Shown: piece after piece, positions 10,780 through 14,722 of the stretch | Numbering within the stretch: the first letter of the stretch is position 1 | Layout of the letters: every line of letters starts with the position of its first letter | Source of the DNA: Solibacillus merdavium | GTDB taxonomy: Bacteria > Bacillota > Bacilli > Bacillales_A > Planococcaceae | Length of the DNA stretch: 64,000 bases | Assembly: GCF_014836935.1 (NCBI RefSeq) | Contig: NZ_JACSPW010000016.1 | Location: forward strand, 1-64,000 | Direction of reading: 5' to 3' | The notes under the pieces: model-generated | Databases searched by the model: none | The model's input: the letters and a program-made list of their open reading frames with translations, nothing else | Told to the model about the DNA's origin: nothing | Program-made: the position numbers and the translations under genes

Positions 10780-11345
10780 TGACAACGAAAATTGCCGTTT
10801 TTGCATCAGGAAGTGGCAGTAATTTTCAAGCGCTTGCTGAAAGTATTGCTAACGGAAAGCTTAATGCCGAAATCGGGCTTGTTGTAACAGACAAGCCTGG
10901 TGCCTACGTTGTCAAACGTGCACAAAGTTTAAATATTCCAGTAGCAGAGTTAGCACCAAAAAGCTTTGAAGATAAAGCTGCCTATGAAGCAAAAATTGTT
11001 AAATTACTAAAAGAAAAAAAGATTGAATGGGTCATTTTAGCGGGGTATATGCGCCTGATCGGTGAAACGCTTTTATCGGCTTATGAAAATCGTATTATTA
11101 ATATCCATCCATCCTTACTGCCATCATTTCCAGGAAAAGATGCTATAGGTCAAGCGATGGAGCACGGTGTGAAAATTACAGGCGTTACCGTACACTACGT
11201 AGATGCGGGAATGGATACAGGCAAAATTATTGCACAGGGTGCCGTTGATGTTGTAGAGGGTGACCGTGAAGCAACAGAAAATCGTATCCATAAATTAGAA
11301 CATTTACTTTATACAAAAACATTACAACAGTTATTTGAATCGTAA
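10779..11345 (+). CDS. purN: GAR transformylase PurN
   Basis: PurN transfers a formyl group from 10-formyl-THF to GAR. The 188-aa protein has the N-terminal [10 protein letters not shown] phosphate loop and the catalytic Asn-His in [14 protein letters not shown]; the Asp lies in [12 protein letters not shown]. It starts in the last base of purM (TAATG). GGGAG lies upstream, within purM. Confidence 0.96.
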
Positions 11346-11412
11346 TTTCGCCTGGGCTGCTCCTGTGAGGGCACTGCTCACCGAAAAAAATGAAAAATTG
11401 GAGGACCTAATC

Positions 11413-12948
11413 GTGACGAAACGTGCACTTATTAGTGTTTCAGATAAAAATGGTATTTTAGAATTTGCAAAAGAATTAGTAGCACTTGGCTATGAAGTAC
11501 TTTCAACTGGAGGTACAAAAAATTTACTACAAGAAAACAATGTACCAGTTACAGCAGTTGATGAAGTAACAAAGTTTCCAGAGATTTTGGATGGACGTGT
11601 AAAAACGTTAAACCCTATGATTCACGGCGGTCTTCTTGGTAAATTTGATGAGCCAAGTCATGTTGCACAAATGGAAGAACACGGCATTGAGCCAATCGAA
11701 ATTGTTTGTGTAAACCTTTATCCTTTCGTAGAAACGATTTCAAAGCCGAATGTTACTTGGGATGATGCGATAGAAAATATCGATATCGGAGGTCCAACAA
11801 TGCTGCGTTCAGCAGCAAAAAATCATGATTATGTAACAGTAATCGTAGATAGCAACGACTATACTGCAGTACTTGAAGAATTAAAGGCAGATGGCAAAAC
11901 AACATTAGAAACACGTCGTCGTTTAGCAGCAAAAGTTTTCCGTCATACTGCTGCATATGATTCGTATATTTCAAATCATTTAACAACAGCAATCGGGGAA
12001 GAGTTCCCTGAAAACTTAACGCTAACTTATGAACTAAAGCAAACATTGCGCTATGGTGAAAACCCTCACCAAAAGGCTGCTTTCTATGCAAAACGCCTAG
12101 GTTCGGATTTCTCGATTGCCTACGCGACACAATTGCATGGAAAAGAATTGTCATACAACAATATTCAGGACGCAAATGCTGCACTTCAAATTGTAAAAGA
12201 GTTTGAGATGCCGGCTGCTGTAGCTGTGAAGCATATGAATCCATGTGGTGTTGGTACAGGTGAAACAATCGAAGAAGCATTTAATAAAGCATATGAGGCA
12301 GATTCAACTTCAATTTTCGGTGGCATTATTGCATTAAATAAAGAAGTGGACGAAGCAACTGCTGAAAAATTATCTCGTATTTTCCTGGAAATCATTATTG
12401 CACCTTCATTCTCTAAAGAAGCACTACATATTTTAACGCAAAAGAAAAATATTCGCTTAGTAACAATTGATTTTGCACAAGAGAAGCAGGACCAATTCAA
12501 TGTTGTAGCGGTTGAAGGTGGTTTACTCGTTCAGGAACCAGACCGTTTCGGCTTTGAAGAAGCAGATATTAAAGTCGTAACAGATCGTGAACCGACAGAG
12601 GAAGAATGGGAAGCATTAAAGCTTGGATGGTCAGTAGTAAAGCATGTAAAATCCAATGCGATTGTTGTTACGGACAAGCAAATGACGTTAGGTGTGGGCG
12701 CGGGGCAAATGAACCGTGTTGGAGCAGCTAAAATTGCATTTGAACAAGCTGGTGAAAAAGCACAAGGCGCGGCATTGGCATCGGATGCATTTTTCCCAAT
12801 GGGAGATACAGTAGAAGCAGCAGCAAAAGCTGGCATCAAGGCAATCATTCAACCAGGCGGCTCGATTAAAGACCAAGAATCCATCGATGCTGCAAACAAA
12901 TATGGTATCGCAATGGTATTTACAGGTGTACGTCATTTCAAACACTAA
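11413..12948 (+). CDS. purH: Bifunctional AICAR transformylase/IMP cyclohydrolase PurH
   Basis: PurH does the last two steps to IMP. The N-terminal MGS-fold cyclohydrolase domain starts [11 protein letters not shown] and includes [11 protein letters not shown]; the transformylase domain has [12 protein letters not shown] with the catalytic Lys-His. I chose GTG 11413, with GGAGG 8 bases upstream, giving 511 aa, the usual size. A reading frame open from inside purN would add 26 residues that do not look like PurH. Confidence 0.95.
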
Positions 12949-12992
12949 TTTGTAACTTTATGTTTAAAACATTATATTCCATTTAATTTTAG

Positions 12993-13021
12993 TAGAGAAA
13001 ATTGCGGATTTTCGTTATAAT
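12993..13021 (+). promoter_or_regulatory. Promoter of the purH-purD hairpin RNA
   Basis: A perfect -10, TATAAT (13016-13021), lies 17 bases after TAGAGA (12993-12998; 4 of 6 match TTGACA). The predicted start near 13028 falls 7 bases before the first hairpin. Confidence 0.55.
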
Positions 13022-13027
13022 AGAATA

Positions 13028-13315
13028 AAGTTTCGCTAATGTTCTGGCCGGACGTTAGCAGAAGCGTTTGCAAATGCTTTATTCATTCTTCTTTCTGGCT
13101 GGGAGAGGGATGAATAAGACGATTGAGCGATTCTTGGCCGGGTCCTCATCGTAAAATAATTTATTAATAATGCATCGACTTTGGTCGGGAGATGCATTGT
13201 TAATAATAAAATGATCATTAATTGTAACAAGCACAGCACTACTTTTGGTCGGGTATCGCAGTGCGAATGACCATTAATGAAAAACGCTCGCCTAAAATTT
13301 GGCGGGCGTTTTTTT
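13028..13315 (+). ncRNA. Candidate noncoding RNA with five tandem hairpins
   Basis: Five successive hairpins lie between purH and purD: 13035-13059 (8-bp stem), 13079-13117 (8 bp), 13119-13152 (8 bp with bulge), 13161-13206 (16 bp with one G-T pair) and 13210-13275 (long, imperfect). Stem sequences differ, but all five apical loops hold the same motif: TCTGGCCGG, TTCTGGCTGGG, TTCTTGGCCGGG, CTTTGGTCGGG and TTTTGGTCGGG, i.e. TGGYYGG. A promoter precedes and a strong terminator follows. No reading frame with a ribosome binding site lies inside. Different stems holding one fixed loop suggest a repeated protein- or RNA-binding site. I cannot assign it to a known family; it could also be a leader of purD. 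Confidence 0.65.
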
Positions 13316-13316
13316 A
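13283..13316 (+). terminator. Terminator after the hairpin RNA, before purD
   Basis: A 10-bp GC-rich stem (AACGCTCGCC/GGCGGGCGTT) with an 8-base loop is followed by a T-run. It should separate purD from the rest of the purine operon. Confidence 0.9.
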
Positions 13317-13336
13317 TATAATTTTTTAACTTCAAG

Positions 13337-13423
13337 CCCATTGATTTCCGTTTCGGTGGACGCTTTCTGCGGGCAGGGTCTAAGCCTGTAGTCTCAGGAG
13401 TCGCCGCCTGCACTACAATCAAC
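13337..13423 (-). repeat. Interspersed Bacillales repeat element
   Basis: The minus strand reads GGCGGCGACTCCTG, then AGAAAGCGTCCACCG, then GAAACGGAAATCAA. From memory, this is the layout of a non-coding imperfect-palindrome repeat common between genes in Bacillus and Planococcaceae. Short inverted ends (TTGATT at 13341 and AATCAA at 13417) border it. It sits between the hairpin-RNA terminator and purD. It looks like a short or internally deleted copy. Confidence 0.6.
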
Positions 13424-13471
13424 TAGTTATACCTAATAAACTAAACTATTCATTTTAAAGGAGAGCTCATC

Positions 13472-14722
13472 ATGAACATTCTTGTAATTGGTAGTGGCGG
13501 TCGTGAACATGCAATCGCTAAACAATTTAACAACGCACCATCTGTAGAAAAGGTTTTCGTAGCACCAGGTAATGATGGAATGAGGCAGGACGCAGAAGTC
13601 GTAGCAATCGATGCATTAGATTTTGCGGCACTTGCACTATTCGCCAAAGAAAATGATATCGCTCTAACTTTTGTAGGACCGGAACAGCCATTGGCAGAAG
13701 GAATTGTCGATTACTTCAATGAGCAAGGCTTAGTTATTTTTGGTCCAACTAAGGCCGCAGCAAAAATTGAAGGCTCTAAGTCTTATGCAAAAGATATTAT
13801 GAACAAATATCAAATTCCGACAGCTGCACACGAAACGTTTACAGAAGCAGATAAAGCAGTTGCCTACATTAAAAAGCAAGGCGCCCCAATTGTTATTAAA
13901 GCAGATGGTTTAGCAGCTGGTAAAGGTGTTATTGTAGCGATGGAAGAACAGGAAGCAATTGAAGCAGTTGAGGATATGATCGGCAACCAGCGCTTTGGTG
14001 ATTCATCGTCGCGCGTAGTAATTGAAGAGTACCTGGATGGCGAAGAATTCAGCTTTATGAGCTTCGTACATAAAGGGCAAATTTATCCAATGGTTATTGC
14101 ACAAGATCATAAACGTGCATATGATGGCGACCGAGGTCCGAATACCGGAGGAATGGGTGCTTATTCGCCGGTCCCACAAATATCTGAGGATGTAGTAAAG
14201 GTTGCTTATGACACAATCGTTCAACCGACTGTACAAGCAATGGAGACAGAAGGTGTATCGTTTACAGGTATTTTGTATGCAGGATTAATTTTAACAGCAA
14301 AAGGTCCAAAGGTTATCGAATTTAATGCACGCTTTGGCGACCCGGAAACACAAGTTGTTCTTCCACGTATGGCATCTGACTTTGGTGAATTTATGATTAG
14401 CTTAATGAATGAAAAGCCGTTTGAGTTAAAGTGGAAAGATGAAGTGACGTTAGGGGTTGTAATAGCTGCTGAAGGCTATCCAGGCGATGTAGAAAAAGGA
14501 AATGCATTACCAGAGCTGTCCGATATTGACTTGCCAGTGTTCTATGCAGGCACAAAATTTGAAGATGGTCAATTTGTTGGTAATGGAGGGCGAGTGCTTT
14601 TAGTTGCCGCTGAAGCCGCAACATTAAAAGAAGCACAGGAAAAGGTCTATACAGAGCTCGCGAAAAAGCAATGGTCAAACTTCTTCTTCCGTCAGGATAT
14701 TGGTTGGAGAACATTTAAATAA
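13472..14722 (+). CDS. purD: GAR synthetase PurD
   Basis: PurD joins phosphoribosylamine to glycine with ATP. The 416-aa ATP-grasp enzyme starts MNILVIGSGGREHAIA, carries KADGLAAGKGV in the ATP site and FNARFGDPETQVVLP as the metal-binding signature. AAAGGAG lies upstream of the ATG. Unlike the other pur genes it is separated from purH by 523 bases holding a terminator and a repeat. I see no convincing promoter between 13316 and 13471, so it may depend on read-through. Confidence 0.96.
   Translation: MNILVIGSGGREHAIAKQFNNAPSVEKVFVAPGNDGMRQDAEVVAIDALDFAALALFAKENDIALTFVGPEQPLAEGIVDYFNEQGLVIFGPTKAAAKIEGSKSYAKDIMNKYQIPTAAHETFTEADKAVAYIKKQGAPIVIKADGLAAGKGVIVAMEEQEAIEAVEDMIGNQRFGDSSSRVVIEEYLDGEEFSFMSFVHKGQIYPMVIAQDHKRAYDGDRGPNTGGMGAYSPVPQISEDVVKVAYDTIVQPTVQAMETEGVSFTGILYAGLILTAKGPKVIEFNARFGDPETQVVLPRMASDFGEFMISLMNEKPFELKWKDEVTLGVVIAAEGYPGDVEKGNALPELSDIDLPVFYAGTKFEDGQFVGNGGRVLLVAAEAATLKEAQEKVYTELAKKQWSNFFFRQDIGWRTFK

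Follow-up and report, generated by a model that had tools for sequence, protein, structure and literature searches.

RNAs of the CsrB/RsmZ type act as sponges for CsrA/RsmA, and consist of numerous hairpins, each showing the same motif at its tip, with a number of sites that varies between species. In Firmicutes it is the protein FliW that controls CsrA, and to our knowledge no CsrB-like RNA is known there. Hairpins sharing a loop sequence also occur in the orphan candidate RNAs TwoAYGGAY and Bacillaceae-1, and known kissing loops have a 9-nt loop with a central self-complementary stretch of 6 nt, a layout matched by the loops described here. Another RNA of repeated hairpins, mini-ykkC, is now known as a guanidine riboswitch. 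A passage of PMC2864571, which also lists TwoAYGGAY and Bacillaceae-1 as table entries, had taken its small repetitive hairpin architecture as suggestive of protein binding. This precedent calls for caution when protein binding is inferred from repeated hairpins.

The locus described here lies between purH (11335..12948, + strand, open reading frame as listed) and purD (13472..14722, + strand) in the window, the 64 kb stretch of DNA that was analysed. Five TGGYYGG sites were found in this gap on the + strand (13045, 13096, 13135, 13182 and 13246), each at the tip of one predicted hairpin. The initial annotation of five hairpins with a shared TGGYYGG loop was confirmed: among 20,000 dinucleotide shuffles of 12993-13316, 18,474 had no site, 1,465 had one, 60 had two and one had three, the maximum, so that none reached five, and the MFE of the same stretch was -116.1 kcal/mol vs. 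-76.5 +/- 5.0 kcal/mol in shuffles (z -7.9, 0/100 as good). All parts were mapped on the + strand. A weak -35-like hexamer, TAGAGA (12993..12998), precedes by 17 nt the -10 box TATAAT (13016..13021), located by promoter scan, from which the RNA 5' end is likely at ~13028. Close to this end lies the 5' strand of the closing stem P1, GTTTC (13030..13034, from folds and alignments), followed by hairpin H1 (13035..13059, motif at 13042-13052, from predicted fold and alignment) and by the conserved AGAAGCGTTT (13060..13069), which contains the P1 3' strand (13061-13065) as well as AGCGTTT, complementary to the terminator 5' arm AAACGCT. The remaining hairpins, all from the predicted fold, are H2 (13078..13118, motif at 13093-13103, a GGCT variant), H3 (13119..13152, motif at 13132-13142), H4 (13161..13206, motif at 13179-13189, with an internal loop beneath the motif) and H5 (13215..13280, motif at 13243-13253, of GGUC type, with internal loops), and the terminator scan placed an intrinsic terminator, AACGCTCGCC...GGCGGGCGTTTTTTT, at 13279..13314. 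Between terminator and purD, a GC-rich palindromic insert was observed at 13338-13420; inserts of this kind, also seen at L007, L011 and L162, vary in length, and are present in some species and absent from close relatives.

For distribution, a DNA search matched 21 of 61 genomes, including 16/16 of the genus (own genome included), with one family match (G016) at another place, without adjoining purH or purD. A covariance model of the 5' domain (R2; -10 box, closing stem and first hairpin) gave one strong match per genome in 28 of 261 family genomes (E <=5.6e-8), which fall into five genera (g1, 16; g15, 1; g16, 3; g18, 5; g19, 3). Six further R2 matches within the family (E 0.005-0.09) were to stretches without the loop motif. 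The order-level search covered the same 261 genomes, and 398 genomes drawn from the class gave two R2 matches, both within the family. Weak 5'-model matches of Lysinibacillus type (L157-L159) were set aside, as they were without the loop; at these loci (~540-590), which come from three family genomes without the RNA, a stem-loop TATAATARARTAATGCTTC...GAAGCG that resembles the 5' end of the purH-purD RNA stands before a small gene (MTNNDILIRLRYALDIKN...). A three-loop DNA pattern also matched 28/261 family genomes, namely 22 carriers and six others, where the matches seem to fall on repeats of a short unit or on dispersed sites.

In all 28 carriers the RNA was flanked by both genes, with the purH end upstream and the purD start downstream. 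Among 80 named purH loci, five carried the RNA (L024, Lysinibacillus sp. MAG; L025, Caryophanon sp. MAG; L026, Metasolibacillus meyeri; L027, Bacillus ndiopicus; L039, Lysinibacillus odysseyi), and the other 75 had no TGGYYGG in the gap. Degenerate tandem units, e.g. CGCAGATAA, CGCACATAA or CGCACGTAA, were seen to fill the purH-purD gaps of L026, L027, L031, L036, L037 and L038. A FastTree of PurH and PurD was built from 75 loci with 28 carriers, in which G067 and 4/5 g18 genomes are present via named loci only, or absent. The smallest clade holding all carriers had a support of 0.999, and an RNA-less clade (support 1.0; L028, L031, L036, L037 and L038, named Ureibacillus or Lysinibacillus) was nested among them, joining one carrier group (join 0.958, that group 0.946; other carrier group 0.855). 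The simplest reading of this tree would be one gain and one loss of the RNA, and the 28 carrier genomes, being close relatives, count as one origin. Taken together, comparison shows what appears to be a conserved structured RNA gene, present as a single strong copy in each carrier genome, within one clade of bacteria that are Planococcaceae-like, a label that rests, for genera g1-g19, on named PurH relatives. The small size of the clade and the constant purH-purD synteny limit stronger claims.

The 28 RNAs were extracted using a pattern requiring TATAATA, the P1 core and AGCGTT; since the fixed terminator pattern missed G008, the extracted G008 RNA extends over a set length instead. Comparison of these RNAs shows a predicted layout of -10 box, 5' closing stem, three to five hairpins tipped YYY-UGGYC-GGR, and intrinsic terminator before purD. 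Five motifs were present in 20 RNAs, four in six and three in two, giving 130 loops, which were collected with TGGYYGG and so have a pyrimidine at motif positions 4 and 5 by construction, and which leave out lost sites and the degenerate H2 sites of G008 and G029. The constant tip proved longer than TGGYYGG, spanning 11 nt: the three bases preceding TGG were pyrimidines in 389/390 cells and the base following the second GG was a purine in 130/130 loops, which defines the tip as YYY-UGGYC-GGR, and bases further out were mixed. The three Y:R positions were able to pair in 129, 130 and 121 of the 130 loops, and the predicted loop may be a UGGYC pentaloop closed by Y:R pairs or an open loop of 9 nt. 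Conservation (mean sum of squared base frequencies, 15 full RNAs) was 0.956 in loop columns and 0.596 in the rest of the body. The last hairpin loop had the GGUC form in 27/28 RNAs vs. mostly GGCC in H1-H3, and the loops may therefore not be fully equivalent. The second hairpin of G067 bears a different loop, and no clean closed hairpin fold was obtained for 3/130 loops (H5 of G033, G110 and G111).

Covariation was assessed on two alignments, with a shuffle control that keeps no relatedness, so that a shuffle count is not a probability. For single hairpins (A1; 40 of 119 listed hairpins, aligned by their loops and compared over 8 stem pairs, hand-chosen, with structure supplied by the analyst, and leaving out H4 hairpins with an internal loop and H3 hairpins with a 10-nt loop), cells changed on both sides numbered 118 vs. 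49 in shuffles (0/500 as high), and the covariation score of 0.749 fell to <=0.371 when the partner strand was slid. For the 5' domains (A3; 15 rows, 12 distinct), such cells numbered 21 vs. 7.3 in shuffles (0/500 as high), and 94.7% of cells were paired vs. <=46.4% with the partner strand slid. Counts of covarying pairs and of pair types did not stand out: in A1, 8 pairs vs. 7.9 in shuffles and 33 further types vs. 29.7 (27/500 as high), and in A3, 7 pairs vs. 5.1 (47/500 as high) and 14 types vs. 14.7. RNAalifold on the full RNAs (A4; 15 of the 28 RNAs, none from g18) drew H1, H2, inner H4 and the terminator, with double changes in 22/60 pairs; unconstrained, it gave no hairpin for H3 or H5. 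The expectation of variable, covarying stems beneath a fixed loop in relatives was thus borne out by the changes on both sides, and the purH-purD element is almost certainly a real, conserved, structured RNA. That it is instead a DNA repeat, a mobile element or a coding region is hardly credible: other kinds of repeat do occur in purH-purD gaps, but this element is found as one copy at one place, with unrelated stems, covariation and a conserved -10 box, searches of the phage and plasmid collections gave no match to it, and the longest stop-free stretches vary in both frame and length from one to another of the 28 RNAs, with no frame common to all.

The scan counts for promoter and terminator were close to expectation (four promoter-like sites vs. 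2.5 expected; one terminator vs. 0.9 expected), and the scan alone proves neither signal. TATAATA was present in 28/28 RNAs, but was required by the extraction pattern; TATAATAGAATA was invariant across the 15 full-length aligned RNAs (g18 left out), while the best -35 in relatives had 2-5 of 6 matches and was not conserved. The terminator was found in 28/28 RNAs when one base was left free, its arm being AACGCT in 27/28 and, in G008, AGCGCT, which still pairs via G-U. With the -10 box invariant in the alignments, the framing by TATAAT and a terminator that the initial annotation described holds for the relatives as well, and the RNA would be transcribed on its own, at a length of ~288 nt.

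The same terminator allows another reading, in which the RNA is a cis-acting purD leader: a factor or metabolite would be sensed by the hairpins, switching would take place at the terminator ahead of purD, and AGCGTTT would be an antiterminator pairing with the terminator 5' arm. The purD start lies 30-265 nt past the terminator in all 28 carriers, and the spacing of 30 or 34 nt in 10/28 leaves little room for a further promoter; AGCGTT is present in every RNA, although the extraction pattern required it, together with a pairable terminator arm in 28/28, and the constant position ahead of purD makes a cis role compatible with synteny. When transcript prefixes that stop at the terminator arm were folded, the antiterminator was favoured in 18/28, but P1 won in 10/28, including all five g18 genomes. 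Because the AGCGTTT and terminator strands are nearly invariant, covariation cannot test their pairing. The terminator is kept between purH and purD in 3/5 nested RNA-less loci (L038 keeps the stem without a T run, and no terminator was found in the L031 gap), so the RNA can be lost with purD still behind a terminator, and a leader would leave the RNA's own conserved -10 box unexplained. We consider a purD leader unlikely, placing it first among the readings that rank behind docking, ahead of self-assembly and then of antisense pairing. A search of the 64 kb window against Rfam 15 at the gathering threshold returned only a purine riboswitch (RF00167, 82.5 bits) at 1227-1326, upstream of purine genes, and the locus therefore has a known purine sensor besides the purH-purD RNA; the purine riboswitch model had no match in the purH-purD region.

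Loop-loop kissing, which had also been suggested, was evaluated by duplex energies. The GGCC-type loop UCUGGCCGGA formed a self-duplex of -16.7 kcal/mol, with 67/5,000 shuffles as good, the mixed GGCC/GGUC duplex had -10.9 kcal/mol, and the GGUC-type self-duplex had -2.4 kcal/mol, with 2,785/5,000 shuffles as good. The suggestion thus stood for the GGCC loops, which are unusually self-complementary, but not for the GGUC loops, which are no better than shuffles. On the reading that the quasi-palindromic UGGYCG loops kiss within or between RNAs, giving a compact fold or a multivalent network, these GGCC-type and mixed duplexes fit, as does the unconstrained RNAalifold result, in which the loop strands of H3 and H5 were paired together of the program's own accord. 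The loop that is not unusually self-complementary is, however, the one retained as the last loop in nearly all RNAs, and no other palindrome was found in the 130 loops, though a TGGYYGG search would miss most such. We hold self-assembly to be quite improbable. In a more specific version, three to five near-identical loops would kiss between molecules, and an assembly formed by this RNA of the pur locus would recruit or store a factor; such a multivalent scaffold is still more doubtful, and if true, the loop repeats would serve RNA-RNA valency rather than one protein.

For partners and targets, both proteins and nucleic acids were considered. CsrA genes were found in 18/18 genomes tested (nine with the RNA, nine without), and Hfq genes in 18/18 of the same composition, so that neither tracks the RNA. 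As a trans antisense RNA, it would use its identical loops to seed pairing with C-rich CCGRCCA in mRNAs or another RNA. The loops are exposed, G-rich, identical and repeated, and seed loops of Gram-positive regulatory RNAs are often exposed and G-rich. Against this, CCGRCCARA, the loop complement and the one 9-nt form covered, gave 35 matches in the own genome, regardless of start-codon position, vs. 55 for a reversed-pattern control; three of the 35 were the RNA's own antisense strand, and with no enrichment and no target found in this search, antisense pairing was judged the least probable of the three ranked alternatives.

A hairpin model was searched in the own genome and in the family genomes. 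Matches at E <=0.01 were obtained in 24 carriers, every one at the purH-purD locus, and four carriers had no match at this threshold. In the own genome, with E up to 10, two of ten matches were at the locus (H1 and H2), and the eight elsewhere were rejected, seven lying in long open frames and one, L153, being intergenic with no fold around the motif. RNA-less family genomes gave 41 matches at E <=0.01 in 26 genomes; 14 of these were inspected, and nine were in long open frames, four in a transposase-adjoining repeat, and one was L199. The repeat (L201, L202, L203 and L210) is transposon-end-like, stands beside a transposase-like frame, contains TTCTTTGGTCGGAA and matches the hairpin model. 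L199 (G164:C2:1635-1667, - strand) is a solitary, well-formed hairpin tipped TTTTTGGTCGG in an RNA-less genome, near a contig end, with no convincing gene there and no second motif on its strand, and may be either a chance match or a stray single site.

Our preferred reading, to which we give a probability of about 0.4, is that several similar sites on the RNA dock one and the same factor and so titrate it. The repeated tips would serve as equivalent sites for a single trans-acting factor, with an RNA-binding protein as the likeliest candidate, and the RNA would titrate this factor as CsrB does CsrA, with a capacity set by the copy number of tips and not by stem sequence. The variation of motif number by whole units (5/4/3) is as expected for independent sites; the difference between last and first loops in most RNAs means that the sites may not be equal. 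The earlier proposal of a loop-binding factor or of sequestration would fit these sequences best, and the searches for CsrA and Hfq supplied no partner. The clean layout and the natural loss within the clade make a partner directly testable by pull-down, with a very short hairpin as bait. A bound protein would make this a titrating RNA in Firmicutes; binding of a metabolite, or of the loops to one another, would instead mean a riboswitch of new layout or an RNA that assembles with itself.

The RNA is an orphan family, with identical 11-nt tips on freely changing stems, that is absent from Rfam at the gathering threshold; the initial annotation, too, could match it to no known Rfam family. With E up to 10, 19 Rfam 15 matches were obtained in 12940-13480, all below cut-off, the best by bits being Thr_leader (29.9 of 55), and among the papers listed in literature searches, none described the purH-purD RNA. 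With kissing loops of the HIV-1 DIS type it shares a 9-nt loop and a central self-complementary hexamer, but its loops are wobble-rich and one loop type is hardly self-complementary. Like TwoAYGGAY and Bacillaceae-1, it is an orphan RNA with a shared hairpin loop sequence, but the loops differ, and neither family was among the Rfam matches (gathering threshold or E up to 10). With mini-ykkC/guanidine-II it has in common small repeated hairpins with a fixed loop and varied stems, whereas the loop is ACGR there, as given in PMC2864571, and UGGYC here, on three to five hairpins before purD. Membership of guanidine-II was rejected, since ACGR loops were absent from the 130 loops, which have UGGYC, and there was no Rfam match to that family. 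Compared with CsrB/RsmZ, the loop differs, GGA there and UGGYC-GGR here; the motif reads GGA in 48/130 loops and GGG in 82/130, and with 82 loops lacking GGA, the purH-purD RNA is not a CsrB member, and a role as a CsrA sponge was rejected on this ground. What it shares with these RNAs is the architecture, which is predicted here: a stand-alone multi-hairpin RNA with a repeated tip and a varying number of sites.
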